From Acorus gramineus (lineage: Eukaryota; Streptophyta; Magnoliopsida; Acorales; Acoraceae): a DNA stretch of 64,000 bases. The notes beneath the pieces were generated by a model. The model made no database searches. It saw nothing but the letters and a program-made list of their open reading frames with translations, and was not told the origin of the DNA. A program made the position numbers and the translations under genes. Location of the stretch: contig CM060855.1 of assembly GCA_030737835.1 (NCBI GenBank), forward strand, positions 430,791 to 494,790. Direction: 5' to 3'. Every line of letters starts with the position of its first letter. The first letter of the stretch is position 1. This document shows positions 21,713 through 42,994 of this stretch, one piece after another.

Positions 21713-21933
21713 TAAAGGTGTTGTGCCTTATCTTACTGCCACGTAGATTCCTTCTCTTTGTCGTTACAGCGCTTATCGTTTAATTTATAGTGCGGCACGG
21801 GTTCATTTGAAAGACATATCACACCCAGGCCAAGGGTATTTTCGGTAAATTGTCTCTGCTAAGCTCGACTATAAAATCTCCAATTTTCGGAATTGAATTC
21901 AATTCCCTCCTTTTTTTCACTTTCAAACCACTA

Positions 21934-22844: not shown

Positions 22845-25800
22845 TCATGGTGGATCATACACCGAGAGTTTGCTCAACAAGAAACCATGCCGCTGAAGTG
22901 TATGAGACTTTGTGAAAAAGTCTGATAACTGAAGAGAAGAGGAAATATATGGGAGTGATATAGTCCCGCAATAAAATGATGACGGACGAAGTGACAATCG
23001 ATCTCGATGTGCTTCGTACGTTCATGAAATACTGGATTGCTAGCAATCTGAATGGCGCTCTTGTTGTCACAATATAGAGGAGTAGACAGATAGAATGACG
23101 CCCATGTCAGAGAGGAGGCGTCGAAGCCAAACAACCTCAGCAGTAGCAGATGCCATAGCACGATATTCGGCCTCAGCACTCGAACGAGAAACAATGTCTT
23201 GTTTCTTGGCCTTCCAAGATATAAGAGAGTCCCCAAGAAAGACACATATACCAGTTGTGGATTTTCGATCTGTGACATCTCCTGCCCAATCAGCATCAGT
23301 ATAAGCGCGAAGTTCAAGAGTAGAAGAAGACGGTAACAGCAGAGCACGAGATATAGTGCCACGTAGATAGCGTATAATCCGAAGAACTGCTGCATAATGA
23401 ACAGTACGAGGGGCAGCGACAAACTGACTGACAATATGCACAGCATAGGCAATGTCAGGACGAGTGACAGTGAGATAGACGAGGCTTCCAACAAGCTGTC
23501 TATAACGAGTAACATCAGAGAGTGGTTCTCCATCGTCAGGCCGGAGCTTAGCATGAAGCTCAATAGGAGTGGGAGAAATGCGATCATCAGTTAGACAGGC
23601 ACGGTCGATCAAGTCAGCAGTATACTTGCGTTGGGAGAGAAGATAACCACGCGGAGCAGAAGCAACTTCCAAGCCTAGAAAATAGCGAAGTTTGCCAAGA
23701 TCTTTCATCTCAAATTGACGCTGAAGATGTTGCTTGACCGACTGTATATGAGACGAATCATCGCCGGTGATGATCATGTCATCAACATAAAGCAGCAGGA
23801 TAGTACGATGAGGACCAGAGGTGTGAACAAATAAAGCTGGATCAGAGGAACTCGAACAAACCCAGCAGCACAGATAGCATCAGTGAATCGAGCGAACCAA
23901 GCACGAGGAGCCTGCTTGAGACCATAGAGAGCGCGGTGAAGATGGCATACATGACCAGATGAATGAGGAAGACCCGGAGGAGGAGTCATGTAAACCTCCT
24001 CTGATAAATCACCATGAAGAAAAGCGTTCTTGACATCAAGCTGATAAATGGGCCATTGACGAACAGAAGCAACAGAAATCAAAGTACGAACAGTTGTCAT
24101 CTTTGCTACAGGAGCAAATGTCTCATCATAATCAATACCATGCTGCTGAGTGAAACCACGGGCAACCAACCGAGCCTTGTGACGCTCAATCGAACCATCA
24201 GAGTTGGTCTTGATCTTATAAACCCACTTACAGCTGATAGGAGTCTTCCCTGGAGGAAGTGGTACAATTTTCCACGTATGAGTGCGTTGTAATGCACTAA
24301 GCTCCTCTGCCATAGCACCTTCCCATTCTGGAATGCCGACAGCCTCACGATATGATTGGGGCTCCCAGTGAGTGGAAACAGCTGAAAGAAAACACTGAAA
24401 ACTAGGAGAAAAAGAATCAGAGGCAACCAAGCTAAGTCGTTGAGGAGGTCGACGAGCGCGAGGCGGATTGCGACGAGGAGCAACTGGTGCGGGATCGACT
24501 ACCGGTGCGGGGTCGACTGCGGATGCGGGGTCGACTGCTGGTGTATGGTCGACTGCTGATGCGGGGTCGACTGCCGGGGCATGGTCGACTACTGGTTGAA
24601 CAACATCAGGCGCAGGAGCAACAACAGGGGGACTCGGCTCACATGAATCATCTGAAGGAGATATAGGGGATGGCAAGGTCGTAGATGGGACAGATGAAGG
24701 AATAGAAGCCGGTGGGATAGACGATGGGGATGACTCAGGAGTAGAGAAATCCAGAAAAATAAGGTCATCAACAGTAGACGGAGGAAGTGGAGCCGGAGGT
24801 GAGCGAAGAGCATAATAAGGATGATGCTCCCAAAATGTGACATGACAAGAAATGCGAAGACGTCGTGCAATAGGATCATAACACTTGTAACCCTTATGTT
24901 GAATACTGTATCCAAGAAAAACACACATAGCAGAACGAGGAGAAAGCTTGGTACGTTCAGTGGGAGGAAGAAGAACAAAACATGTGCAACCAAAAACACG
25001 AAGACGAGAATAATCAGGTGGCTGATTGTGAAGCCGCTCAGATGGTGAGATACCACCAGTAATAGATGACGGAGTGCGATTGATGAGATACACACTTGTG
25101 AGAACTGCCTCACCCCAAAACTCAACAGGGACGGATGCAGAAAGAAGTAAAGATCGAGTCATCTCAAGGATGTGACGGTGTTTACGCTCAGCAACGCCAT
25201 TTTGTTGATGAGCATAAGGAGTGGAAAACTGAGGAAGGGTGCCTTGGGATGTCAAATATTCACTAAAAGCCTTAGAACAATATTCACCACCACAATCAGA
25301 GCGTAACACCTTAATACGACGAGAAAATTGAGTCTCAACCATGGTAGCAAAAGAAGTATAAATACGCAATAAATCTGAACGACTAGAGAGAAGGTAAATC
25401 CAAGTGAAACGAGAATAGTCGTCGATAAAAATGACATAATATCGATTTCCCCCTTTTGAAAAAATAGGAGACGGACCCCAAATATCAGAATGAACTAAAT
25501 CAAAGGGAGAATCTGAAATATGCGAACTGGAAGGAAAGGAAGAGCCACTGTCTTACCCAATTTACAGCCCACGCATGGTTGAAGATCCGTGCGAGAAAAT
25601 GATCCTAATGCACCGGTGCTAACAAGATATCGGAGTCTAGGCTGAGACAAATGACCAAGACGACGATGCCAAAGATCGAAAGGGGAAGGGGAATTTGTAT
25701 CTAACTGCACAGAAGCAGCGGAAGGCAGAGGAACATGAAGCTGATCCATGTAATAGAGTCCACCTTGTCGTCGCCCAGTCCCAATCCGTCTCCCAGTAAG

Positions 25801-26409
25801 TCGATCCTGAACAGAACAAGATGATGAATCAAATGTGATCGTATAACCAAGGTCAGCAAGTTGACTGACAGAAAACAAACTCATGGAAAGTTTAGGAACA
25901 TGCAAAACATTTGGCACATTAAATCGATGAGAATGATCAGAAAGAATGCCAGAGCTCGAGACAGACATAGGAGAACCATCAGCAGTGCGAATAAGTGAAG
26001 GAGAACGGAGTGGTGTACAATTAACAAGAATCGATGCATCCGATGTCATGTGATGGGAAGCCCCAGAATCAAGAACCCATGAGGTAATCGGTATACCTGG
26101 TACGGGAGTAGAAGCAGACTGAACAGAACCAGAAAGATCTATACCAGTCAATGATCGTAACATAACATAAAGCTGTTGATATTGATCTTGTAGCCCCTTT
26201 AAATGTGCAATAAGGTGAGCTGTGGTAAACTGTGACTGAGCAGAAGCAACGCGAGGTGCAATTGATGTACATATCTGATCCTGACAAAGAGAAGATTGAG
26301 TAGACGACTGGATTGATAAAGAGAAAGCGGCATCTCGAGCACGTTTTCTAGCCAACTTGCGGCAATCGAGGGTCACATGACCAAAGGAGTGACAATATCT
26401 GCAATCCAT
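22845..26409 (-). pseudogene. Copia polyprotein, broken by frameshifts
   Basis: Reading right to left: CCHC zinc knuckle CRYCHSFGHVTLDC (26403-26360), protease motif WVLDSGASHHMTSD (near 26080-26040), the pre-integrase zinc region DLWHRRLGHLS with CVGCKLGKT (25660-25550), integrase with SDCGGEY and NGVAERKHR (25310-25170), reverse transcriptase with LDVKNAFLHGDL and YGLKQAPRAWF (24040-23900) and YVDD (about 23790), and RNase H with [16 protein letters not shown] and [12 protein letters not shown] (23310-23150). Frame breaks lie near 25540, 23850, 23085 and 22955, so no single protein is possible. The gag-pol junction side is cut by the Gypsy array at 26426. Pol domains are otherwise well conserved, which fits recent decay or base-calling indels. 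Confidence 0.93.
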
Positions 26410-26692
26410 AGTACTTGCACAGCAATTGTTATATATGTGTCACTTTTTAGCCTGCTGGTAACCGTTGGAGCATTTCTGGCAGTTTTAAAAATTTTTAGGG
26501 TTTTTCGATCGGAACCGCATAATTTCAGACTGTTAGCTATCGTCTGAGCTAGAGGACTCCGATTGAAAATCTAATTGCATATTTGGTGTCCTGGTGCCAT
26601 TTTAGACCTCTCACGAAAATTTCATCGAATTCTGGCATCGTTTGCAAAAATTTTGCAGTTCCGGAGCGTATCTGGGTTTTTAAGTCGCGAAC

Positions 26693-26698
26693 TATAAA
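26693..26698 (+). promoter_or_regulatory. TATA box of the Gypsy LTR promoter
   Basis: TATAAA in the context CTATAAATTGGGG, followed within about 60 bp by a CT-rich leader (CGAGATCTCTCTCTCCCC). The same motif lies at 33425-33430 and 40152-40157 in LTRs 2 and 3. The spacing suits transcription start in the LTR, with U3 to the left. Confidence 0.6.
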
Positions 26699-27016
26699 TT
26701 GGGGTGAGCTAATTTCGAGGAGCACTGTTCATCATCTTCCTCGTCGAGATCTCTCTCTCCCCTCTCCGTTTTTCTTCCTTTCAAGCCCCCTAGACCCCTC
26801 GAAATCGAAAACCCAAAGCACGGGAAGTGTAGATCGGGTCCCGATCTACACACCGGTGTCTTCAAATCCGTATTCCGACGATCCTAGCCTCCCCGACCCC
26901 CTCTCTCTCTCCTCTGTTTCGACCCAAATCGAGGGCCGTGATAGATCGGGTGTGGGAAAGCCTTTGAGGAAGGTTTCGGCGCGCGAGGAGCTACCGAACG
27001 TCTTCCCCTCCCCTCG

Positions 27017-27859
27017 GTAAGCTTCCCTTCCCTCTTTTCTTGCATGAATGTGTGCTTGGGGGGTGGGTTTTGTGATTGGGGGTGGTCGGTGGCTGTGGGG
27101 GTCGCCGGAGGGTAGTCGGGGGTGGCTGGAGGGGTCGGCGGCAGTGGGAGAGGTGGTGTGGGGTGCTCGGCAGGCAGGGACGCCGTCTCGGGCAGCAAGC
27201 AGCGGCGGCAGCAGCCCCGGGCCGCGCGTGGGCTGGGCGCGTGCAAGGATGCGCGTGCGCGCGCGGGCGTGCGTGCGCGCGGCCTGCGCGCGGGCGTGCG
27301 CGGGTCGGGGGCTGGCTGCCTTGCTCGTGCTGGTGTGCTGGCAGGGCGGGAGTGTGGGCTGGTGGCCTCAGGCGCGCGAGGAGGTGCTGGCCGAGGTGCT
27401 GGGCGCGCGAGGTGCTGGCGGAGGTGCTGGCGGAGGTGCGCGCGGTGCTGGGCGGACTAGTGCGCGTGGAGCAGGTCGCGCGGGTGCGAGGTGCGCGCGG
27501 GGCGCGGGGCAGTGCGCGAGGTGCGTGCGAGGTGCGCGCGGGGCGCGAGGTGCGTGCGAGGTGCGCGCGAGGTGCGGCAAGGTGGCGGAGGTGCGCGCGG
27601 GGTGCGCGCGAGGCGGGGCACTGCGTGCGGGGGCGCGCGGGGTGCTCGCGGACCGGCGCGAGGCGTGCGGGGCCCGCGGTGGCGCGTCCGGGCGGTGGCC
27701 GACCGTGCGGGTGGTTGCCGGGGGCCGTGCGGGTGGTTGCCGAGGCCGCGAGTAGTTGTTGGGGAAGTGTTGGATGCTTGTTGTGGGTTTTGGGGTGTTT
27801 AATTATGTATTTAATGATAATTGTGGATTAATACTTACCAAATAATACCTGTCTTGCAG
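27017..27859 (+). other. Intron-like segment inside the LTR leader
   Basis: The donor CTCG|GTAAGC at 27016/27017 and acceptor CTTGCAG|ATC at 27859/27860 enclose 843 bp. The acceptor side has the AT-rich composition and CTTAC branch-like motif expected of a plant intron. The same sites recur in LTR 2 (donor 33749, exon start 34592) and LTR 3. Splicing is inferred from signals alone. It would remove the G/C-rich minisatellite from the retrotransposon RNA leader. Confidence 0.45.
27040..27760 (+). repeat. G/C-rich, CpG-dense minisatellite in LTR 1
   Basis: About 700 bp dominated by GAGGTGCGCGCGGGG-type repeats, strongly G-rich on the + strand. Because stop codons are scarce in such sequence, open frames of over 200 codons arise in more than one frame, rich in Arg, Ala and Gly; they have no start context or domain and are not genes. 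The equivalent blocks are 33775-34490 and 40500-41215. Confidence 0.85.
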
Positions 27860-27920
27860 ATCTCGACAGATGGTCGCGCGTTGACCCCGATCACTGGTGA
27901 GTGGGACAATCCAACCCAGT

Positions 27921-27961
27921 GGAGAGGTGTTATACGCACTTGGGCGTATACCGACCTCTCC
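27921..27961 (+). other. Perfect-stem hairpin conserved in all three LTRs
   Basis: GGAGAGGT, then ATACGC, loop, GCGTAT and ACCTCTCC form a long inverted repeat just after the second donor-like site. It is repeated unchanged at about 34653-34693 and 41376-41416. It could be a packaging or structural RNA element; function unknown. Confidence 0.6.
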
Positions 27962-28659
27962 TGGGGCACCTTGGATAAATATTGACCATGTGTAATATGT
28001 ATATCATGCGAGCATGATTAAATTGTAGAATGCATGTTACCCTAGACCTTGCATGTTAGGGACTTGCACCCTTAGGACATGTTATGAGCCATGCAGCATG
28101 TCCCCTGTTTCCATGTTAGGAAGCCCGACCGATGCATGTGCCCTACTAGTTTATTTATTAAATTAAATGCTAGTATTTGTTTACAATGCATGTTATAGTG
28201 AATATTATAGGGGAGGGGCCTTGCGAGGACAGCGGTGAGACCCGGGTTAGGGTACACCGTGTTCCTTGTTTGGTTGTCGGGGTGTCCTATAGCGGGAACT
28301 CACGCTGCCCTCCCGAGTTTCTTTCCCCAACGATATTCCACCTTGTTATAACCTTATGCATGTTCCCCGCATCGTAGTTATGCGCCCTGGTGGGTTCTGA
28401 GGAATTCAGAACGTTAGAGTTGTTATGACGTGTTGTCTGCGGATCCGAGTGGATCATATGCGATGGATAGGCTGTCCTGTTGCCCTGCGTTGGATCCGTT
28501 AGAGACTACCTCGGCGTTAGACAGGTTGTCCCGTGCAGGGGCTCCCACTAGTAGGCGCCTCCTGGTTTGATGAAGGACTGTGCTGAACATGGGAGTGGCC
28601 AAACAACCGCGGAGTGAGGAGAGACTATCGGTGGACCAAGGGTGACCAACAGCCTAGTC

Positions 28660-28997
28660 AGTCCCAAGAGCCTATGTCACCTGTTGAAAGGTGAGGGTGA
28701 GGGTATGGTGGGCCGGCGATGTGGCGACCCACTGGATTGTAAGTCCCAATATCCTATGTCACCCATTGAAGGGTGAGGGTGAGGGTGTGGCGGGTTGGCG
28801 GAAGCGACCCGTTGGTTTTGGTGCAGTTAGTCCCAATATCCTTGGTCACCCTTGAGGGTGAGGGTGAGGGTGTAGCGGGTTGGCGGAAGCGACCCGCTGG
28901 TTTGGTATAGCCAGTCCCAATATCCTTTGTCGCCCATTGAAGGGTGAGGGTGAGGGTGTAGTGGGTTAGCGATCGAGCGACCCACGGCTTTGAGTCG
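28660..28997 (+). repeat. Four tandem units with GGGTGAGGGTGAGGGT cores in LTR 1
   Basis: Units of about 82-86 bp start at 28660, 28742, 28829 and 28913 with AGTCCCAA. Each contains the G-tract series and a CGACCC half. The four evenly spaced G-tracts per unit could form G-quadruplexes. Matching blocks lie at about 35386-35720 and 42117-42455, with small copy-specific indels. Confidence 0.85.
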
Positions 28998-29133
28998 TTG
29001 ATATCATTGTTGTGGCTTGATAATGTGTTGTGGAGGATAAGGATTTTCTGGTTGAAGTCAATATTGTCTGTGATGCATGGGTTGTGCCGTTCACTGAGCG
29101 TGTGGCTCACCCCTCGCATAATCTTTTCTACAG

Positions 29134-29186
29134 TGTCATCTGAGTCGGATCTGGAGGAGGAGCTCCCCGAGGGACTTCATCAGTAG
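29134..29186 (+). other. Exon-like tail of the LTR leader
   Basis: Behind a good acceptor (TTTTCTACAG) the sequence reads VSSESDLEEELPEGLHQ and a stop when joined in phase to the 37-bp exon-like piece 27860-27896, which ends with donor ACTG|GTGAGT. The arrangement recalls a captured cellular gene fragment. There is no independent evidence of expression. Confidence 0.35.
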
Positions 29187-29529
29187 CGGAGTAGCGCCAC
29201 GTCCCGCGAGTTGCAGAGACTATCAGCATCCCTTGTACCAGTATGTATTTTCCGTGCTTGGGCACGCGTTTGTGTTGTATTTGGATGTCTTTGTATGTAT
29301 ATTGGCTCTCACAGGACATGTGATTATGTATGGAGTCTGTAGTGTGTTTTGATTACAGATTCAGTCTTAGTTATCCGCATTTGGTGTATATATATCCTGT
29401 CAGCCTTGCTTTTGTTGTCTGTGTGTCATTTTGGCTGCTTGTGTATGATATTATTGACCTCCTGAGTAGATTCTGATATTATATATACACTTGCCGCGTC
29501 TCGGGGACGCCCGGGGCGTGACAAAAAGG

Positions 29530-29541
29530 TGGTATCAGAGC
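29530..29541 (+). other. Primer-binding site 1 (initiator tRNA-Met)
   Basis: TGGTATCAGAGC begins six bases after the end of LTR 1 and is complementary to the 3' end of plant initiator tRNA-Met. The second copy is at 36258-36269. Confidence 0.9.
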
Positions 29542-29598
29542 CTGGTCCTGTCAGAGCCAATGGTCTTCTTTCGTAGAGATGAGTCCTAGGATTTTGAT

Positions 29599-30057
29599 AT
29601 GGGTATTCTGATCCTAGAGTCTGGTTTTCTTAGGATTGCTGATATGTCTCCTCGTGGAGGACGGCGCGGACATGGTCCCTCTCGACCTTTGGAGGTTTTC
29701 GGACCTGCTAGAGGCGAGGATGCTACTGGAGAGTCCACGGCTGTGAGGCCAGGATCGGCGCAGGAGCCTCCCGCACGGGAACGTGCGTTCGCTCGGATAG
29801 CGGATTCGTTGGAGACTCGGATCAAGGCACTGGAGGCGCAGACCAGAGCGTTGGTAGAGCAAGCGCGGGAGATCCGGGAGCTGAGGGCGGCCCGTGATGC
29901 AGTTCCACAGGTCCCCTTGGTAGCAGATCCGTCTGTGGTACCCGAAGTACCCCCCAGTCCCCGTGGTGATTCCAGCGGTGAGAGTTCAGGATCCCCTAGT
30001 GAGGGAGGTGGAGCTAGAGGCTGCAGCGCGAGTATTGAGTGTGGTTGTTCGAATTGA
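29599..30057 (+). pseudogene. Gag-like frame, copy 1, shifted
   Basis: Starts MGILILESGF and contains an Arg/Gly stretch (RGGRRGHGPSRP) and a heptad-like segment (ETRIKALEAQTRALVEQ), as in the N-terminal part of Gypsy gag proteins. One extra C in a C-run near 29948 shifts the last third out of the frame kept by the second copy. It lacks the retrotransposon gag core domain and the zinc knuckle. Confidence 0.55.
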
Positions 30058-30149
30058 AGAGGCTGGGTTGTAGCCGTCCTGGCAGGAGGCTCTCATCCGT
30101 AGGTACCGCCGATGCAGTCGGAGGGGTACTGATCGTGGGAGTGTGTCAG

Positions 30150-30680
30150 GTAGGGGCTAACCCGGAAATGGATTAATGGATGGTGTCGCGAGCGTGGAAT
30201 CGCTCTCCCCTTCGTTGGATTCGCGTAGTACAGCCCCGGCATTAGACAGGCTCCCGGTCAGAGGACCAGGCGAGCTACGGAGCGGGGAGAGGCTACCGGT
30301 GGACCAGGGGTAGAGAGCAGTCTAAGTCTCTCCCAAAGTCCCAATATGTCTCCTGATGGGAGTGAGGGTGTGGATGAGACAATGACGCGTCAACTCGTGA
30401 CCCAAATTGCTGTTCGACCATTCCCACGGAGGTTGGGTCCGGTCTTGAGAAGGATGTTGAATGACATCGTTGAGTGATCATCTAGAGGTAGATGATCCGG
30501 AGGGGTTAGTGATGTTCTTTAGAATGATGTCTTCTTCTAGTGTTCCTTTCTGGATTAAGGGGCCTTGTGAGGTCGGCGTTGGAACCCGGGCTAGGGTACT
30601 TCGTGTTCCTTGTTTGGTTGTCGGGGTATCCTATATCGGGATTTCATGGTGCCCTCCCGAGGTTTCTTTTCCCAGATAAG
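30150..30680 (+). repeat. LTR-related modules inside the internal region
   Basis: Two blocks resemble LTR sequence. Block 30215-30375 (GTTGGATTCGCGTAG, TTAGACAGGCTCCCG, GGTGGACCAGGGG, AAAGTCCCAATATG) matches LTR 1 at 28488-28760. Block 30558-30675 (GGGGCCTTGTGAGG, GGTACTTCGTGTTCC, GGTTGTCGGGGTATCC) matches 28212-28330. Their order is swapped relative to the LTR. The equivalent in the second internal is about 36880-37405. Confidence 0.75.
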
Positions 30681-33146
30681 GGATACCATGGAAGCATCAG
30701 ATAGATGAGAGATCAAGTGCGAGTTTGGTTAGAGGTTAAGGCCTTTTGGGCTGAGTGATTTCTGGTGAAGGCATATCTGTGGACCCGGGTAAGACGCTTG
30801 CTATGTCGAATTGGCGCAGGCCGTCGAACCCCGCAAGGATTCGGAGCTTCCCGAGTTGGCGGGTTATTGCAGGAAGCTTGACGAGGGACTCTCGAAGATA
30901 GCTGTTCCTCTTAACCGCCTTACTTGGAAGGATATCCGGTTCGAGTGGTCCCCTTCTTGCGAGGAGAGCTTCCTGGAGTTTACTCGGAGGCTCACCTCAG
31001 CGCCAGTTCTTACCTTCCGTCTGGGAGGGGTGGGTTCGCAGTTTGCTCTGACGCATCGCGTTTGGGTGTGGTGATGCGTTCGATCGGATTGGGTGCGTCC
31101 TATTGCAGCTCAGTGGGCGATCGCTAGTGGACAGGGTTCCATAGTGGCATCTGGAGTCGCTTCGATAAATCATTATGTGTTGTAGCTGCCCGGTTGAGGC
31201 CAGAGCCCTACGAGGTGCTCCCAGATGCTATGCTTGTTGGTGCGCCCATATGGCAGAGATAGCGGGCTTGGGAGGCTACCAGGTAGAGGCCACACCGGGA
31301 GAGTGCTGCTAAATGATGACGAAAGCATGGACTCCCGTGATGAATCTGCCCATGAGTGCAGGATGCCGGAGTTCCAATGGTTGTGATGAGCGGCCTATCT
31401 CTGGCGGCATGTAAGCACAGTTGTAGATACTGTCGCGTTTTGCCCCACATTGGTCGCAAATAAGGAGACGCGATGCTAGCGTTCGTGATGGGACTTGACC
31501 GCCATATCAGATAGATGACGTTGCATAGGCATTGTCGAGGTCCGACGACCCCTTATTGCATGTCTCGTGGATTAAGTGCGGTTAAGCGGCTTACCGAGCG
31601 TGTAAGTGTTATCATGAGCGCCAGCCATGCTCGAAGAGCAGAATCCGAACTTGATTGTTCATGGTGTTGTTTTGATCTCCCCGTGGAGGTAGAAGATCAA
31701 TTACCTTTGTCGCGAATGGATGATCTATTTGACCAGCTCTGAGAGCGAGTGCCTGCTGTTAGATCGATCTTCGCACAAGGGTACCACAAGCTGGAGATCC
31801 GAGAGTTGGACATCCCGTAGATGGCCTTTCGTGACCGTTCAGGCACTACGAGTTTTAAGTACTGCCGTCGGGGTGGACGAATGCGCCGGATGCCTTCGTG
31901 GATCTCGAAAGTTTTATTGGGTTTCCGAGGACTACTTTGGGGTAGTCTTTGTTGAGTTGCTGTGGTGTGATGATAAGATGATGTGGGTGACCTTGTTTCC
32001 CCAGGTTGGCATGCCCTCAGGCAAAGTTCGAGATTCATCATCGCGTGAAAAGCGTCAGTCCATCAAGATTCCTCAGTGGGCGTGAGAATGGGTTGTCAGG
32101 GATTGTTGCAGACTCGTTAATGTCACGTTCGGGTCACGACGCCGTCTGGGTGATCATTGACCGACTGACTAAGTCCGCGACTCCCTCCCTATCAGACTGA
32201 TTGAGTCTCTGGACGTCTTGACGTGGGTTTCCACCTTCGCGATTGTTCGTCTTCATGGCACTCCAGTCGGCGCTATTTTCGGTTGAGACGCGAGGGTTAC
32301 TTTGAGGTTGTGGCGCAGCCTTTGGCGCGAGCCTCCATTTAAGTATAGCGTTTCATCGCCGATGGACAGCCAGTCAATGAGGGCGATTCGAACCTTGGAG
32401 GACATGCTATGTGCCTGCGTGCTCGATGTTGAGGGCAGTTGGGTGAGGCACCACCAATTGTTGGGGTATGCCTGTAAGCGACTGCCATTCGAGCACCCGG
32501 ATGGATCGGTGATGGGCACTCTACAGGCGCAGTTCCATACCTCCCTTGTGTTGGGACGGTAGTGGAGCGCCAGTTGGAGGGGCCATAAGTTAGTTGTTTG
32601 ACCTCGCGGTGGCCGGGTTGGTTAGGGTGTACATCTGCACCTCCCAGAACCGACAGAAGGGCTACCCGGGTCATCGTCGCCAGAAGCTTACCTTCGGGTT
32701 TGGCGACCATAATTGCAAGGAAGTGTCCTGGTTTAAGGGCATCCTCTGTTTCGACGTTCGGGGCAAGCCGAGTTGCTCTTTAATGGGACCTTGTTCTCGT
32801 CATTGAGTGGATTGGGGAGGTGGCTTATCATGTAGCCTTTCCCCCGCAGCTGGTTCGTGCCCACGACGTCGTCCTTGTCCCATGGCCAAGGCGTTATGTC
32901 CACGATCCTGCTCACGTCATCCCGTTCGAGCCGCTTGTCTCTGAGCCGGACAGTCATTCGTGGAGCAGTCGATTGAGATCATGGACCGCCGCGTGAGGAG
33001 GCTCTGCACCAAGACCGTCCAGCTGGTCGAGGTGCGATGGCAGCACCGTTCCGGTGTCAAGGACACATGGAAGCTCATGGATGCCAGGTGTGACGCATCT
33101 TTTCCCCTCCTAGATGTTTTTGCATATTTTGTGGACAAAATTTCCT

Positions 33147-33159
33147 AAGGGGGGAAGAA
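33147..33159 (+). other. Gypsy polypurine tract 1
   Basis: AAGGGGGGAAGAA directly precedes LTR 2. The identical tract at 39874-39886 precedes LTR 3. Confidence 0.9.
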
Positions 33160-36100
33160 TGTTATATATGTGTCACTTTTTAGCCTGCTGGTAACCGTTG
33201 GAGCATTTCTGGCAGTTTTAAAATTTTTAGGGTTTTTCGATCGGAACCGCATAATTTCAGACTGTTAGCTATCGTCTGAGCTAGAGGACTCCGATTGAAA
33301 ATCTAATTGCATATTTGGTGTCCTGGTGCCATTTTAGACCTCTCACGAAAATTTCATCGAATTCTGGCATCGTTTGCAAAAATTTCGCAGTTCCGGGGCG
33401 TATCCGGGTTTTTAAGTCGCGCACTATAAATTGGGGTGAGCTAATTTCGAGGAGCACTGTTCATCGTCTTCCTCGTCGAGATCTCTCTCTCCCCTCTCCG
33501 TTTTTCTTCCTTTCAAGCCCCTAGACCCCTCGAAATCGAAAACCCAAAGCACGGGAAGTGTAGATCGGGTCCCGATCTACACACCGGTGTCTTCAAATCC
33601 GTATTCCGACGATCCTAGCCTCCCCGACCTCCTCTCTCTCTCCTCTGTTTCGACCCAAATCGAGGGCCGTGATAGATCGGGGTGTGGGAAAGCCTTTGAG
33701 GAAGGTTTCGGCGCGCGAGGAGCTACCGAACGTCTTCCCCTCCCCTCGGTAAGCTTCCCTTCCCTCTTTTCTTGCATGAATGTGTGCTTGGGGGGTGGGT
33801 TTTGTGATTGGGGGTGGTCGGTGGCTGTGGGGGTCGCCGGAGGGTAGTCGGGGGTGGTTGGAGGGGTCGGCGGCAGTGGGAGAGGTGGTTGGAGGTGCTC
33901 GGCAGGCGGGGACGCCGTCTCGGGCAGCAAGCAGCGGCGGCAGCAGCCCCGGGCCGCGCGTGGGCTGGGCGCGTGCAAGGATGCGCGTGCGCGCGCGGGC
34001 GTGCGTGCGCGCGGCCTGCGCGCGGGCGTGCGCGGGTCGGGGGCTGGCTGCCTTGCTCGTGCTGGTGTGCTGGCAGGGCGGGAGTGTGGGCTGGTGGCCT
34101 CAGGCGCGCGAGGAGGTGCTGGCCGAGGTGCTGGGCGCGCGAGGTGCTGGCGGAGGTGCTGGCGGAGGTGCGCGCGGTGCTGGGCGGACTAGTGCGCGTG
34201 GAGCAGGTCGCGCGGGTGCGAGGTGCGCGCGGGGCGCGGGGCAGTGCGCGAGGTGCGTGCGAGGTGCGCGCGGGGCGCGAGGTGCGTGCGAGGTGCGCGC
34301 GAGGTGCGGCAAGGTGGCGGAGGTGCGCGCGGGGTGCGCGCGAGGCGGGGCACTGCGTGCGGGGGCGCGCGGGGTGCTCGCGGACCGGCGCGAGGCGTGC
34401 GGGGCCCGCGGTGGCGCGTCCGGGCGGTGGCCGACCGTGCGGGTGGTTGCCGGGGGCCGTGCGGGTGGTTGCCGAGGCCGCGAGTAGTTGTTGGGGAAGT
34501 GTTGGATGCTTGTTGTGGGTTTTGGGGTGTTTAATTATGTATTTAATGATAATTGTGGATTAATACTTACCAAATAATACCTGTCTTGCAGATCTCGACA
34601 GATGGTCGCGCGTTGACCCCGATCACTGGTGAGTGGGACAATCCAACCCAGTGGAGAGGTGTTATACGCACTTGGGCGTATACCGACCTCTCCTGGGGCA
34701 CATGGATAAATATTGACCATGTGTAATATGTATATCATGCGAGCGTGATTTACTTGTAGAATGCATGTTACCCTAGACTTTGCATGTTAGGGACTTGCAC
34801 CCTTAGGATATGTATATGAGCCATGCAGCATGTCCCCTGGTTCCATGTTAGGAAGCCCGGCCGATGCATGTGCCCTACTAGTTTATTTATTAAATTAAAT
34901 GCTAGTATTTGTTTAAATGCATGTTATAGTGAATATTATAGGGGAGGGGCCTTGCGAGGACAGCGGTGAGACCCGGGTTAGGGTACACCGTGTTCCTTGT
35001 TTGGTTGTCGGGGTGTCCTATAACGGGAACTCACGCTGCCCTCCCGAGTTTCTTTCCCCAACAATATTCCACCTTGTTATAACCTTATGCATGTTCCCCG
35101 CATCGTAGTTATGCGCCCTGGTGGGTTCTGAGGAATTCAGAACATTAGTGTTGTTATGATGTGTCTGCGGATCCGAGTGGATCATATGCGATGGATAGGC
35201 TGTCCTGTTGCCCTGCGTTGGATCCGTTAGAGACTACCTCGGCGTTAGACAGGTTGTCCCGTGCAGGGGCTCCCACTAGTAGGCGCCTCCTGGTTTGATG
35301 AAGGACTGTGCTGAACATGGGAGTGGCCAAACAACCGCGGAGTGAGGAGAGACTATCGGTGGACCAAGGGTGACCAACAGCCTAGTCAGTCCCAAGAGCC
35401 TAGGTCACCTGTTGAGGGTGAGGGTGAGGGTATGGTGGGCCGGCGATGTGGCGACCCACTGGATTGTAAGTCCCAATATCCTATGTCACCCGTTGAAGGG
35501 TGAGGGTGAGGGTGTGGCGGGTTGGCGGAAGCGACCCGTTGATTTTTGGTGCAGTTAGTCCCAATATCCTTGGTCACCCTTGAGGGGTGAGGGTGAGGGT
35601 ATAGCGGGTTGGCGGAAGCGACCCGCTGGTTTGGTATAGCCAGTCCCAATATCCTTTGTCGCCTCTTGAGGGTGAGGGTGAGGGTGTAGTGGGTTAGCGA
35701 TCGAGCGACCCACGGCTTGAGTGTTGATATCATTGTTGTGGCTTTGGAAATGAGATTGTGGATGATAAGGGTTATCTGGTTGAAGTCAATATTGTCTGTG
35801 ATGCATGGGTTGTGCCGTTCACTGAGCGTGTGGCTCACCCCTCGCATAATCTTTTCTACAGTGTCATCTGAGTCGGATCTGGAGGAGGAGCTCCCCGAGG
35901 GACTTCATCAGTAGCGGAGTAGCGCCACGTCCCGCGAGTTGCAGAGACTATCAGCATCCCTTGTACCAGTATGTATTATTTTCCGTGCTTGGGCACGCGT
36001 TTGTGTTGTATTTGGATGTCTTTGTATGTATATTGGCTCTCACAGGACATGTGATTATGTATGGAGTCTGTAGTGTGTTTTGATTATAGATTCAGTCTTA

Positions 36101-36251
36101 GTTATCCGCATTTGGTGTATATATCCTGTCAGCCTTGCTTTTGTTGTCTGTGTGTCATTTTGGCTGCTTGTGTATGATATTATTGACCTCCTGTGTAGAT
36201 TCTGATATATATATACACTTGCCGCGTCTCGGGGACGCCCGGGGCGTGACA
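33160..36251 (+). repeat. Gypsy LTR 2 (3092 bp)
   Basis: The middle LTR, shared by both units: 3' LTR of the first and 5' LTR of the second. It has the same internal order as LTR 1, with its own variants in the right half (for example GGCTTTGGAAATGAGATTG near 35740, and a short deletion near 35160). No target duplication surrounds it, as expected for an LTR created by recombination. Confidence 0.95.
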
Positions 36252-36257
36252 AAAAGG

Positions 36258-36269
36258 TGGTATCAGAGC
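36258..36269 (+). other. Primer-binding site 2 (initiator tRNA-Met)
   Basis: TGGTATCAGAGC six bases after LTR 2, identical to the first copy. Confidence 0.9.
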
Positions 36270-36326
36270 CTGGTCCTGTCAGAGCCAATGGTCTTCTTTC
36301 GTAGAGATGAGTCCTAGGATTTTGAT

Positions 36327-36800
36327 ATGGGTATTCTGATCCTAGAGTCTGGTTTTCTTAGGATTGCTGATATGTCTCCTCGTGGAGGACGGCGCGGACA
36401 TGGTCCCTCTCGACCTTTGGAGGTTTTCGGACCTGCTAGAGGCGAGGATGCTACTGGAGAGTCCACGGCTGTGAGGCCAGGATCGGCGCAGGAGCCTCCC
36501 GCACGGGAACGTGCGTTCGCTCGGATAGCGGATTCGGTGGAGACTCGGATCAAGGCACTGGAGGCGCAGACCAGAGCGTTGGTAGAGCAAGCGCGGGAGA
36601 TCCGGGAGCTGAGGGCGGCCCGTGATGCAGTTCCACAGGTCCCCTTGGTAGCAGATCCGTCTGTGGTACCCGAAGTACCCCCAGTCCCCGTGGTGATTCC
36701 AGCGGTGAGAGTTCAGGATCCCCTAGTGAGGGAGGTGGAGCTAGAGGCTGCAGCGCGAGTATTGAGTGTGGTTGTTCGAATTGAAGAGGCTGGGTTGTAG
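36327..36800 (+). CDS. Short gag-like protein, copy 2 (open frame)
   Basis: A 157-codon frame with an Arg/Gly-rich start (SPRGGRRGHGPSRP), a helical heptad-like stretch (ETRIKALEAQTRALVEQ) and a Pro/Val-rich linker, ending RVLSVVVRIEEAGL. It resembles only the N-terminal part of Gypsy gag: no CCHC knuckle and no gag core are visible, and full Gypsy gag proteins are much longer. The same region is shifted in internal 1. Whether the peptide is made or useful is unknown. Confidence 0.45.
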   Translation: MGILILESGFLRIADMSPRGGRRGHGPSRPLEVFGPARGEDATGESTAVRPGSAQEPPARERAFARIADSVETRIKALEAQTRALVEQAREIRELRAARDAVPQVPLVADPSVVPEVPPVPVVIPAVRVQDPLVREVELEAAARVLSVVVRIEEAGL

Positions 36801-39800
36801 CCGTCCTGGCAGGAGGCTCTCATCCGTAGGTACCGCCGATGCAGTCGGAGGGGTACTGATCGTGGGAGTGTGTCAGGTAGGGGCTAACCCGGAAATGGAT
36901 TAATGGATGATGTCGCGAGCGTGGAAATCGCTCTCCCCTTCGTTGGATCCGCGTAGTACAGCCCCGGCGTTAGACAGGCTCCCGGTCAGAGGACCAGGCG
37001 AGCTACGGAGCGGGGAGAGGCTACCGGTGGACCAGGGGTAGAGAGCAGTCTAAGTCTCTCCCAAAGTCCCAATATGTCTCCTGATGGGAGTGAGGGTGTG
37101 GATGAGACAAGGACGCGTCAACTCGTGACCCAAATTGCTGTTCGACCATTCCCACGGAGGTTGGGTCCGGTCTTGAGAAGGATGTTGAATGACATCGTTG
37201 GGTGATCATCTAGAGGTAGATGATCCGGAGGGGTTAGTGGTGTTCTTTTAAATGATGTCTTCTTCCAGTGTTCCTTTCTGGATTAAGGGGCCTTGTGAGG
37301 TCGGCGTTGGAACCCGGGCTAGGGTACTTCGTGTTCCTTGTTTGGTTGTCGGGGTATCCTATATCGGGATTTCATGGTTCCCTCCCGAGGTTTCTTTTCC
37401 CAGGTAAGGGATGCCATGGAAGCATCAGAAAGATGAGAGATCAAGTGCGAGTTTGGTTAGAGGTTAAGGCCTTTTGGGCTGAGTGATTTCTGGTGAAGGC
37501 ATATCTGTGGACCCGGGTAAGACGCTTGCTATGTCGAATTGGCGTAGGCCGTCGAACCCCGCAAGGATTCGGAGCTTCCCGAGTTGGAGGGTTATTGTAG
37601 GAAGCTTGACGAGGGACTCTCGAAGATAGCTGTTCCTCTTAACCGCCTTACTTGGAGGGATATCCGGTTCGAGTGGTCCCCTTCTTGCGAGGAGAGCTTC
37701 CTGGAGTTTACTCGGAGGCTCACCTCAGCGCCAGTTCTTACCTTCCGTCTGGGAGGGGTGGGTTCGCAGTTTGCTCTGACGCATCGCGATTGGGTGTGGT
37801 GATGCGTTCGATCGGAACCAGGTGCGTCCTATTGCAGCTCAGTGGGCGATCGCTAGTGGACAGGGTTCCATAGTGGCATCTGGAGTCGCTTCGATAAATC
37901 ATTATGTGTTGTAGCTGCCCGGTTGAGGCCAGAGCCCTACGAGGTGCTCCCAGATGCTATGCTTGTTGGTGCGCCCATATGGCAGAGATAGCGGGCTTGG
38001 GAGGCTACCAGGTAGAGGCCACACCGGGAGAGTGCTGCTAAATGATGACGAAAGCATGGACTCCCGTGATGAATCTGCCCATGAGTGCAGGATGCCGGAG
38101 TTCCAATGGTTGTGATGAGCGGCCTATCTCTGGCGGCATGTAAGCACAGTTGTAGATACTGTCGCGTTTTGCCCCACATTGGTCGCAAATAAGGAGACGC
38201 GATGCTAGCGTTCGTGATGGGACTTGACCGCCATATCAGATAGATGACGTTGCATAGGCATTGTCGAGGTCCGACGACCCCTTATTGCATGTCTCGTGGA
38301 TTAAGTGCGGTTAAGCGGCTTACCGAGCGTGTAAGTGTTATCATGAGCGCCAGCCATGCTCGAAGAGCAGAATCCGAACTTGATTGTTCATGGTGTTGTT
38401 TTGATCTCCCCGTGGAGGTAGAAGATCAATTACCTTTGTCGCGAATGGATGATCTATTTGACCAGCTCTGAGAGCGAGTGCCTGCTGTTAGATCGATCTT
38501 CGCACAAGGGTACCACAAGCTGGAGATCCGAGAGTTAGACATCCCATAGATAGCCTTTCGTGACCGTTCAGGCACTATGAGTTTTAAGTACTGCCGTCGG
38601 GGTTGACGAATGCGTCGGATGCCTTCGTGGATCTCGAAAGTTTTATTGGGTTTCCGAGGACTACTTTGGGGTAGTCTTTGTTGAGTTGCTGTGGTGTGAT
38701 GATAAGATGATGTGGGTGACCTTGTTTCCCCAGGTTGGCAAGCCCTCAGGCAAAGTTCGAGATTCATCATCGCGTGAAAAGCGTCAGTCCATCAAGATTC
38801 CTCAGTGGGCGTGAGAATGGGTTGTCAGGGATTGTTGCAGACTCGTTAATGTCACGTTCGGGTCACGACGCCGTCTGGGTGATCATTGACCGACTGACTA
38901 AGTCCGCGACTCCCTCCCTATCAGACTGATTGAGTCTCTGGACGTCTTGACGTGGGTTTCCACCTTCGCGATTGTTCATCTTCATGGCACTCCGGTCGGC
39001 GTTATTTTCGGTTGAGACGCGAGGGTTACTTTGAGGTTGTGGCGTAGCCTTGGCGCGAGCCTCCATTTAAGTATAGCGTTTCATCGCCGATGGACAGCAA
39101 GACAAAGGGACGATTCGAACCTTGGAGGACATGCTATGTGCCTGCGTGCTCGATGTTGAGGGCAGTTGGGTGAGGCACCACCAATTGTTGGGGTATGCCT
39201 GTAAGCGACTGCCATTCGAGCACCCGGATGGATCGGTGATGGGCACTCTACAGGCGCAGTTCCATACCTCCCTTGTGTTGGGACGGTAGTGGAGCGCCAG
39301 TTGGAGGGGCCATAAGTTAGTTGTTTGACCTCGCGGTGGCCGGGTTGGTTAGGGTGTACATCTGCACCTCCCAGAACCGACAGAAGGGCTACCCGGGTCA
39401 TCGTCGCCAGAAGCTTACCTTCGGGTTTGGCGACCATAATTGCAAGGAAGTGTCCTGGTTTAAGGGCATCCTCTGTTTCGACGTTCGGGGCAAGCCGAGT
39501 TGCTCTTTAATGGGACCTTGTTCTCGTCATTGAGTGGATTGGGGAGGTGGCTTATCATGTAGCCTTTCCCCCGCAGCTGGTTCGTGCCCACGACGTCGTC
39601 CTTGTCCCATGGCCAAGGCGTTATGTCCACGATCCTGCTCACGTCATCCCGTTCGAGCCGCTTGTCTCTGAGCCGGACAGTCATTCGTGGAGCAGTCGAT
39701 TGAGATCATGGACCGCCGCGTGAGGAGGCTCTGCACCAAGACCGTCCAGCTGGTCGAGGTGCGATGGCAGCACCGTTCCGGTGTCAAGGACACATGGAAG

Positions 39801-39873
39801 CTCATGGATGCCAGGTGTGACGCATCTTTTCCCCTCCTAGATGTTTTTGCATATTTTGTGGACAAAATTTCCT

Positions 39874-39886
39874 AAGGGGGGAAGAA
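39874..39886 (+). other. Gypsy polypurine tract 2
   Basis: AAGGGGGGAAGAA directly against LTR 3, same as at 33147-33159. Confidence 0.9.
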
Positions 39887-42800
39887 TGTTATATATGTGT
39901 CACTTTTTAGCCTGCTGGTAACCGTTGGAGCATTTCTGGCAGTTTTAAAATTTTTAGGGTTTTTCGATCGGAACCGCATAATTTCAGACTGTTAGCTATC
40001 GTCTGAGCTAGAGGACTCCGATTGAAAATCTAATTGCATATTTGGTGTCCTGGTGCCATTTTAGACCTCTCACGAAAATTTCATCGAATTCTGGCATCGT
40101 TTGCAAAAATTTTGCAGTTCCGGGGCGTATCTGGGTTTTTAAGTCGCGCACTATAAATTGGGGTGAGCTAATTTCGAGGAGCACTGTTCATCGTCTTCCT
40201 CGTCGAGATCTCTCTCTCCCCTCTCCGTTTTTCTTCCTTTCAAGCCCCTAGACCCCTCGAAATCGAAAACCCAAAGCACGGGAAGTGTAGATCGGGTCCC
40301 GATCTACACACCGGTGTCTTCAAATCCGAATTCCGACAATCCTAGCCTCTCCGACCTCCTCTCTCTCTCCTCTGTTTCGACCCAAATCGAGGGCCGTGAT
40401 AGATCGGGGTGTGGGAAAGCCTTTGAGGAAGGTTTCGGCGCGCGAGGAGCTACCGAACGTCTTCCCCTCCCCTCGGTAAGCTTCCCTTCCCTCTTTTCTT
40501 GCATGAATGTGTGCTTGGGGGGTGGGTTTTGTGATTGGGGGTGGTCGGTGGCTGTGGGGGTCGCCGGAGGGTAGTCGGGGGTGGCTGGAGGGGTCGGCGG
40601 CAGTGGGAGAGGTGGTTGGGGTGCTCGGCAGGGGGACGCCGTCTCGGGCAGCAAGCAGCGGCGGCAGCAGCCCCGGGCCGCGCGTGGGCTGGGCGCGTGC
40701 AAGGATGCGCGTGCGCGCGCGGGCGTGCGTGCGCGCGGCCTGCGCGCGGGCGTGCGCGGGTCGGGGGCTGGCTGCCTTGCTCGTGCTGGTGTGCTGGCAG
40801 GGCGGGAGTGTGGGCTGGTGGCCTCAGGCGCGCGAGGAGGTGCTGGCCGAGGTGCTGGGCGCGCGAGGTGCTGGCGGAGGTGCTGGCGGAGGTGCGCGCG
40901 GTGCTGGGCGGACTAGTGCGCGTGGAGCAGGTCGCGCGGGTGCGAGGTGCGCGCGGGGCGCGGGGCAGTGCGCGAGGTGCGTGCGAGGTGCGCGCGGGGC
41001 GCGAGGTGCGTGCGAGGTGCGCGCGAGGTGCGGCAAGGTGGCGGAGGTGCGCGCGGGGTGCGCGCGAGGCGGGGCACTGCGTGCGGGGGCGCGCGGGGTG
41101 CTCGCGGACCGGCGCGAGGCGTGCGGGGCCCGCGGTGGCGCGTCCGGGCGGTGGCCGACCGTGCGGGTGGTTGCCGGGGGCCGTGCGGGTGGTTGCCGAG
41201 GCCGCGAGTAGTTGTTGGGGAAGTGTTGGATGCTTGTTGTGGGTTTTGGGGTGTTTAATTATGTATTTAATGATAATTGTGGATTAATACTTACCAAATA
41301 ATACCTGTCTTGCAGATCTCGACAGATGGTCGCGCGTTGACCCCGATCACTGGTGAGTGGGACAATCCAACCCAGTGGAGAGGTGTTATACGCACTTGGG
41401 CGTATACCGACCTCTCCTGGGGCACTATGGATAAATATTGACCATGTGTAATATGTATATCATGCGAGCGTGATTTACTTGTAGAATGCATGTTACCCTA
41501 GACCTTGCATGTTAGGGACTTGCACCCTTAGGATATGTATATGAGCCATGCAGCATGTTCCCTGGTTCCATGTTAGGAAGCCCGGCCGATGCATGTGCCC
41601 TACTAGTTTATTTATTAAACTAAATGCTAGTATTTGTTTACAATGCATGTTATAGTGAATATTATAGGGGAGGGGCCTTGCGAGGACAGCGGTGAGACCC
41701 GGGTTAGGGTACACCGTGTTCCTTGTTGGGTTGTCGGGGTGTCCTATAACGGGAACTCACGCTGCCCTCCTGAGTTTCTTTCCCCCAATGATATTCCACC
41801 CTGTTATAACCTTATGCATGTTCCCCGCATCGTAGTTATGCGCCCTGGTGGGTTCTGAGGAATTCAGAACGTTAGAGTTGTTATGACGTGTTGTCTGCGG
41901 ATCCGAGTGGATCATATGCGATGGATAGGCTGTCCTGTTGCCCTGCGTTGGATCCGTTAGAGACTACCTCGGCGTTAGACAGGTTGTCCCGTGCAGGGGC
42001 TCCCACTAGTAGGCGCCTCCTGGTTTGATGAAGGACTGTGCTGAACATGGGAGTGGCCAAACAACCGCGGAGTGAGGAGAGACTATCGGTGGACCAAGGG
42101 TGACCAACAGCCTAGTCAGTCCCAAGAGCCTATGTCACCTGTTGAAAGGTGAGGGTGAGGGTATGGTGGGCCGGCGATGTGGCGACCCACTGGATTGTAA
42201 GTCCCAATATCCTATGTCACCCGTTGAAGGGTGAGGGTGAGGGTGTGGCGGGTTGGCGGAAGCGACCCGTTGATTTTTGGTGCAGTTAGTCCCAATATCC
42301 TTGGTCACCCCTTGAGGGGTGAGGGTGAGGGTGTAGCGGGTTGGCGGAAGCGACCCGCTGGTTTGGTATAGCCAGTCCCAATATCCTTTGTCGCCCATTG
42401 AAGGGTGAGGGTGAGGGTGTAGTGGGTTAGTGATCGAGCGACCCACGGCTTTGAGTCGTTGATATCATTGTTGTGGCTTGATAATGTGTTGTGGAGGATA
42501 AGGATTTTCTGGTTGAAGTCAATATTGTCTGTGATGCATGGGTTGTGCCGTTCACTGAGCGTGTGGCTCACCCCTCGCATAATCTTTTCCTACAGTGTCA
42601 TCTGAGTCGGATCTGGAGGAGGAGCTCCCCGAGGGACTTCATCAGTAGCGGAGTAGCGCCACGTCCCGCGAGTTGCAGAGACTATCAGCATCCCTTGTAC
42701 CAGTATGTATTATTTTCCGTGCTTGGGCACGCGTTTGTGTTGTATTTGGATTTCTTTGTATGTATATTGGCTCTCACAGGACATGTGATTATGTATGGAG

Positions 42801-42989
42801 TCTGTAGTGCGTTTTGATTACAGATTCAGTTTTTAGTTATCCGCATATGGTGTATATATATCCTGTCAGCCTTGCTTTTGTTGTCTGTGTGACATTTTGG
42901 CTACTTGTGTATGATATTATTGACCTCCTGTGTAGATTCTGATATTATATATACACTTGCCGCGTCTCGGGGACGCCCGGGGCGTGACA
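39887..42989 (+). repeat. Gypsy LTR 3 (3103 bp)
   Basis: The outer right LTR, ending GGGGCGTGACA against the GCAAT duplication. In the first half it shares variants with LTR 2 (AGGATATGTATATGAGCC near 41530, GCGTGATTTACTTG near 41467). Further right it shares them with LTR 1 (GGCTTGATAATGTGTTG near 42474). It is therefore a mosaic of the other two. Confidence 0.95.
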
Positions 42990-42994
42990 GCAAT

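Follow-up and report, generated by a model that had tools for sequence, protein, structure and literature searches.

Tandem arrays in which retrotransposon copies share long terminal repeats (LTRs) have been described in rice, where Morales-Diaz et al. (2025; PMC11899658) reported 28 clear arrays in Nipponbare and 266 candidates in a pangenome. The Tekay lineage is enriched among them, and RIRE8A and RIRE3 are among the commonest tandem families; one rice array was confirmed by reads, and the choice between recombination and insertion as a tandem was left undecided. Sabot and Schulman (2007; PMC1950507) propose template switching. The Cassandra paper (PMC7215508) names recombination as well as template switching and, for barley BARE1, quotes a figure of at least 4,600 structures of this kind. 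Here we describe an array of this kind in Acorus gramineus, located in a 64,000-nt stretch of contig CM060855.1 (assembly GCA_030737835.1, positions 430,791 to 494,790). This whole stretch is called the window, and coordinates are counted from its first letter. Three LTRs and two internal regions of a Ty3/Gypsy-type element, non-autonomous by its appearance, lie in alternation within one target-site duplication (TSD) and interrupt a degenerate Copia-type element. The array is a real, ordinary example of an already described structure. The original prediction, made from the window's letters, had held that intact triple-LTR arrays nested in another element are seldom described in detail, a view now out of date given the rice inventory (PMC11899658). 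Nor is the structure rare in this genome, which contains two more intact arrays, a degenerate one and three loci with the order polypurine tract (PPT), LTR, primer-binding site (PBS).

A three-LTR array within one target-site duplication

Comparison of the window with itself revealed a direct repeat of 9.85 kb with 98.4% identity at an offset of ~6.73 kb, beyond chance, together with a match of LTR1 to LTR3 over 3.1 kb. Self-matches and reading of the ends resolve into the layout LTR-internal-LTR-internal-LTR in plus orientation, which begins and ends with an LTR and alternates its units (Table 1). The three ~3.1-kb LTRs and two ~3.64-kb internals in direct order that the original prediction had proposed proved correct to the base. 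All three LTRs share the start TGTTATATATG and the end CGTGACA. Directly after both LTR1 and LTR2 stands AAAAGG followed by TGGTATCAGAGC, which puts the primer site six bases past the LTR, and CCTAAGGGGGGAAGAA directly precedes both LTR2 and LTR3. These motifs we take to be PBS and PPT by their likeness to known ones, and TGGTATCAGAGC is presumably a primer site of the initiator-Met type, a tRNA assignment that we assume. GCAAT flanks the array on both outer sides and is not present at the inner junctions, where PPT or PBS stands instead; reading of the junctions therefore bears out the two primer sites, the two PPTs and the single outer duplication that had been predicted. The anatomy and the single duplication can be read directly from the sequence.

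One outer TSD with clean inner junctions and, more weakly, the pairing of the two internals in a tree (below) support a single insertion event for the window array. Nesting of a second element into an LTR is ruled out because no duplication occurs inside the array, and fusion of two adjacent insertions by recombination is unlikely because the same GCAAT stands on both outer flanks. Each LTR also carries a minisatellite-like repeat of ~82-85 bp with ~80% identity (28656-28971 in LTR1, with counterparts at the corresponding position of LTR2 and of LTR3).

Table 1. Features of the window array, its host element and the two further intact arrays (window coordinates unless a contig is named)
Feature	Position	Strand	Basis or remark
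Left TSD, GCAAT	26422..26426	.	end reading
LTR1, 3,097 bp, TGTT...GACA	26427..29523	+	self-comparison and end reading
Internal 1 (I1), 3,636 bp	29524..33159	+	alignment of units
PBS of internal 1, TGGTATCAGAGC	29530..29541	+	motif
gag remnant of internal 1, residues 1-124 of the 450-aa gag of relative L040, 96%	29590..29961	+	
PPT CCTAAGGGGGGAAGAA directly before LTR2	33144..33159	+	motif
LTR2, middle LTR common to both units, 3,092 bp	33160..36251	+	
Cluster of LTR2 changes	35719..35774	+	comparison with family copies
Internal 2 (I2), 3,635 bp	36252..39886	+	alignment of units
Second PBS	36258..36269	+	motif
gag remnant of internal 2, residues 1-148 of the same gag, 95%	36318..36761	+	
PPT directly before LTR3	39871..39886	+	motif
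LTR3, 3,103 bp	39887..42989	+	self-comparison and end reading
Right TSD, GCAAT	42990..42994	.	end reading
Degenerate Copia-type element interrupted by the array	22877..26424	-	Pfam domains in several open pieces
Intact array C5	C5:10482316-10498413		CATCA duplicated
Intact array C66	C66: about 868770-852075	-	ACTAT duplicated

Element type and family

Ten plus-strand open pieces of both internals gave no Pfam match above the cut-off; the lone retroelement hint in them was RT_RNaseH_2 at E 0.11-0.13, below the cut-off. The pol order of protease, reverse transcriptase, RNase H and integrase was not seen in the pieces searched, and two gag-region frames were likewise without a pol domain, as is expected of a non-autonomous derivative. 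L040, a close relative at another place in the genome, carries an intact gag reading frame of 450 aa in which Retrotrans_gag (1.4e-17) and Ty3_capsid (9.6e-10) were recognised. Both internals match its first residues (Table 1) and lack the capsid part, and the rest of this gag was not found anywhere in the window. The element thus looks, from its sequence, like a non-autonomous one with a truncated Ty3/Gypsy-type gag; we use the label Gypsy-type on account of gag kinship and claim no complete Gypsy element.

The family is abundant. A search of the genome (398.6 Mb, 137 contigs; counts of large families are lower bounds) that allowed up to three mismatches matched at least 2,375 PPT-LTR and at least 412 LTR-PBS junctions, of which 100 of each kind were listed; reversed control patterns gave zero junction matches in the genome. 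The family names Squiq and RIRE8 were considered as candidates and are not adopted.

Divergence and kinship of the units

LTR1 and LTR2 differ at 48 of 3,083 sites, LTR1 and LTR3 at 35 of 3,092, LTR2 and LTR3 at 46 of 3,087 and the two internals at 38 of 3,633 (Kimura two-parameter distances 0.0158, 0.0114, 0.0151 and 0.0106, respectively). The pairwise comparison that the original prediction had called for accordingly places the internals at 1.05% and the outer LTRs at 1.13%, with an internal/outer-LTR divergence ratio of 0.92 (95% interval 0.58-1.46). Under unequal exchange, divergence of the internals should not exceed that of the outer LTRs, as is the case here. These values support a near-equal age of the units and, because internal and outer-LTR divergence are so close, suggest that the array probably formed at insertion or soon after.

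The higher divergence of LTR2 is due to a short cluster of changes (Table 1). On its right-hand side, a 40-mer has a single match in the genome when up to one mismatch is allowed; the left-hand part is shared with copy C4a_5, so that the cluster is private only in part. Conversion from another copy was considered as the source of the extra divergence and rejected, the right-hand 40-mer being found only here. Private changes often lie in tight groups of less than 100 bp; in the window this is seen in the LTR2 cluster and at 38537-38615 and 38978-39110, and it is seen in many family copies too. One 30-mer searched from the internal 2 clusters was found only in this array. Clustering was significant in 5/5 array units, 11/18 ordinary LTRs and 6/9 ordinary internals, two of these nine having too few private sites for the test. 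Conversion from distant copies, multi-base mutation, and alignment or consensus error may each account for such bunching.

At a grass rate of 1.3e-8 substitutions per site per year, LTR1-LTR3 divergence would correspond to ~0.4 Myr, a figure that deserves little weight because the differences are often alleles of other copies. In a separate alignment with family copies, both alleles of 23 of the 39 LTR1-LTR3 differences occur elsewhere in the family, and four ordinary two-LTR copies gave 21/52, 34/52, 18/28 and 52/65 (40-80%). Exchange between copies is the likely cause of these shared alleles. Since within-copy LTR differences are so often alleles of other copies, LTR divergence should not be trusted for dating within this family.

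Kinship was assessed with two trees, one of 21 LTRs and one of 11 internals that included partial sequences for three of the nine relatives. In the tree of internals, I1 and I2 pair with a support of 0.873, and they share three sites absent from every other copy compared. In the LTR tree, LTR1 and LTR2 are paired (0.846), LTR3 joins a C2 copy (0.19), and these four sequences are grouped at 0.797.

Mosaic structure of the middle LTR

Unequal exchange predicts that LTR2 should resemble LTR3 on the left and LTR1 on the right. Of 46 one-against-two events, 32 fit this polarity, the switch falling in alignment columns 1704-1739 (permutation p 0.029); for substitutions alone the count was 24/34 (p 0.060), and the reverse polarity did not outperform shuffled data (p 1.0 and 0.94). 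Derived sites were then polarised on 18 family LTRs with indels left out; the polarity counts set aside four LTR sites for which fewer than 12 outgroup letters were present and four internal sites for which fewer than four were. Left of position 1670, LTR1-derived sites were private in 12/12 cases; right of it they were shared by LTR2 in 5/9 (p 0.0062 for this cut, which was picked afterwards; single-switch permutation p 0.0094). These results lean weakly in the direction of unequal exchange and are not decisive.

Further arrays in the same genome

A genome search for other arrays of the family, likewise called for at the outset, recovered two that are intact. Among the 100 listed exact LTR-PBS junctions, four same-strand pairs, the window included, are 6.4-6.7 kb apart, and three of these are intact three-LTR, two-internal arrays: that of the window, C5 and C66 (Table 1). 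The fourth, on C2, is degenerate; the part of it analysed reads LTR-internal-LTR-partial internal. From the 77 places on C1 in the PPT-LTR list, five same-strand pairs with spacings of 7.5-12.5 kb were also chosen. In three of them (L037-L039) the LTR behind the first PPT leads into a primer site, as expected of an LTR common to two units; two pairs of 12.48 kb were not confirmed as arrays, as their LTR is without a following primer-site match at up to two mismatches. Among the 40 best LTR hits, no second triple of the window array's own subfamily was noticed.

The C5 internals differ at 60/3,126 sites (1.9%), more than the 27/3,266 of its outer LTRs (p 2.0e-4), and the C5 LTRs differ from one another by 0.7-1.0%. 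For C66, LTR2 and LTR3 differ at 24/3,430 sites (0.70%) versus 54/3,106 (1.7%) for the internals (Fisher p 1.4e-4), with LTR1 and LTR3 at 58/3,433; a separate alignment gave 57/3,107 for internals and 67/3,445 for LTR1-LTR3. The one-switch mosaic analysis found no switch point in either array (p 1.0 in both). With few outgroups, three internals for each array, both alleles were found among outgroup internals for 18/54 C66 and 7/60 C5 internal differences.

Two same-strand LTR-PBS junctions at C57:2885058 and 2895340, 10,282 bp apart, mark a candidate further array, and additional same-strand pairs listed on C1 are 4,649, 10,661, 15,640 and 18,430 bp apart.

Origin of the window array

The leading reading, to which we give about an even chance, is one insertion followed by LTR-LTR unequal exchange. 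A non-autonomous Ty3/Gypsy-type element would have inserted into a Copia relic, generating the 5-bp GCAAT duplication. Soon after, the 3' LTR of one copy would have paired with the 5' LTR of the copy on the sister chromatid or homologue, and exchange between them would have produced LTR-internal-LTR-internal-LTR with a single outer duplication. This is the sequence of events put forward in the original prediction, of which the single insertion stands on one TSD and clean junctions; the later crossover is a possible step that we infer, with equal divergence, the weak mosaic of LTR2 and the misfit of C5 and C66 speaking for caution.

Several observations count against unequal exchange after one insertion. 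Equal internal and outer-LTR divergence would suit arrival as a ready-made array equally well. The polarity signal in LTR2 vanishes (p 0.38) once derived sites less than 50 bp apart are collapsed, the cut at 1670 was a post hoc choice, the derived site at LTR position 3039, which LTR2 has in common with LTR3, runs counter to the predicted polarity, and positions 228 and 700 are common to LTR1 and LTR3. Four copies are nearer to I1 by raw distance than is I2 (1.05%), namely C62 (0.34%), C4b (0.45%) and C2c (0.56%), all partial, and the whole C5 copy (0.84%), in part because I2 has more private changes (18 fixed private versus 7 in I1). No site is common to all three LTRs yet absent from the 18 other family LTRs. 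The 23/39 LTR1-LTR3 differences with both alleles in the family are unexpected of new mutations after one insertion, a test that is blurred because ordinary two-LTR copies show the same pattern through exchange between copies. Finally, C5 and C66 do not fit simple unequal exchange without later LTR conversion, because exchange within one insertion cannot make internals older than outer LTRs, as in C5, or LTR2-LTR3 younger than the two internals, as in C66.

Less probable, but a serious contender, is that the array was already a multimer at integration, derived from read-through or template-switched RNA or complementary DNA (cDNA) or from two LTR-joined cDNAs, and acquired one duplication. Formation at insertion would leave all units about equally diverged, as they are in the window. 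The C66 pattern hints at this route, as it would follow directly from two-parent joining before integration: LTR2-internal 2-LTR3 resembles one lineage and LTR1-internal 1 another within a single ACTAT duplication, and a third of its internal differences segregate among outgroups. For that reason we tentatively entertain the possibility that at least some three-LTR arrays of the family do not arise by chromosomal crossover but integrate already assembled from the transcripts or cDNAs of two different parents. In C5 the excess of internal over outer-LTR divergence points the same way, but the case is weaker, with so few internal differences having both alleles in outgroups, and LTR conversion after exchange could also yield the patterns of both arrays. 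Precedents include the template switching proposed for Triticeae (PMC1950507) and the tandem transcripts from circular DNA proposed for rice (PMC11899658). Two LTR-joined cDNAs, however, would be expected to leave an LTR2 that resembles LTR1 in its left part and LTR3 in its right part. The window array does not show this polarity, and LTR2 shares 0/12 of the LTR1-derived sites left of 1670.

Alternatively, a resident element could have captured, through homologous recombination in an LTR, extrachromosomal cDNA or a one-LTR circle from its own family, which we consider improbable. Such uptake keeps one duplication and would account for family-segregating LTR alleles and for copies nearer to I1 than I2, and integrase-independent integration into existing elements has been reported from yeast according to PMC11899658. 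The tree pairing of I1 and I2 would nevertheless demand a near-identical donor, and ordinary copies show an equally strong signal of segregating alleles. We also judge it unlikely that the assembly expanded one two-LTR element or falsely joined family copies. Short change clusters found nowhere else in the genome could reflect poor consensus, and every array unit shows private clustering; yet private clusters are also frequent in ordinary LTRs and internals, so that as a mark of bad assembly at the window array alone they are unsupported. Moreover, divergence between the units is 1.0-1.6%, the same TSD stands at both outer ends, the two further arrays carry TSDs of their own, and four long reads crossed the whole of a similar array in rice (PMC11899658).

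The array is useful as a test case for recombination after insertion versus arrival as a multimer, a question stated to be open in PMC11899658. Comparing internal divergence, outer-LTR divergence and middle-LTR polarity over many arrays could settle the route.

Host element and surroundings

The array is nested, as predicted, in another element, a degenerate minus-strand Copia. Its Pfam matches comprise Pol_BBD and gag_pre-integrase at 25498-26424, integrase (rve), SH3_retrovirus and RVT_2 at 23777-25552, and the remainder of RVT_2 at 23070-23879. Four minus-strand pieces past the right end of the array gave no Pfam match at E 0.01. A repeat at 21929/46838 was considered as the Copia LTRs and rejected, as its ends do not support that assignment.

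Comparison with described systems

The 28 Nipponbare arrays (PMC11899658) hold conserved retrotransposon domain regions, whereas the window array has only a truncated gag in the pieces searched. Rice has Spip and Squiq, large LTR elements without a full coding set that act as the non-autonomous counterparts of RIRE3 and RIRE8 and whose LTRs are related to those of these autonomous partners (PMC1940013); their link to the window element is a lead by description only. Arrays of Cassandra and of terminal-repeat retrotransposons in miniature (TRIMs) likewise consist of tandem LTRs and internals with shared LTRs, for which PMC7215508 proposes intrachromosomal recombination and template switching. 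There, Cassandra is described as compact and without gag, pol and env, in which it differs from the window element, and its arrays can be long. The closest parallels are the rice arrays TLI1 and TLI2 (PMC11899658). TLI2 is also nested in another transposon, a Mutator-like element (MULE) where the window array has a Copia host, shows ~99% identity between units and is likewise left open as to mechanism. TLI1 and TLI2 both share with the window array two internals, three LTRs, a shared middle LTR and a short outer target duplication.

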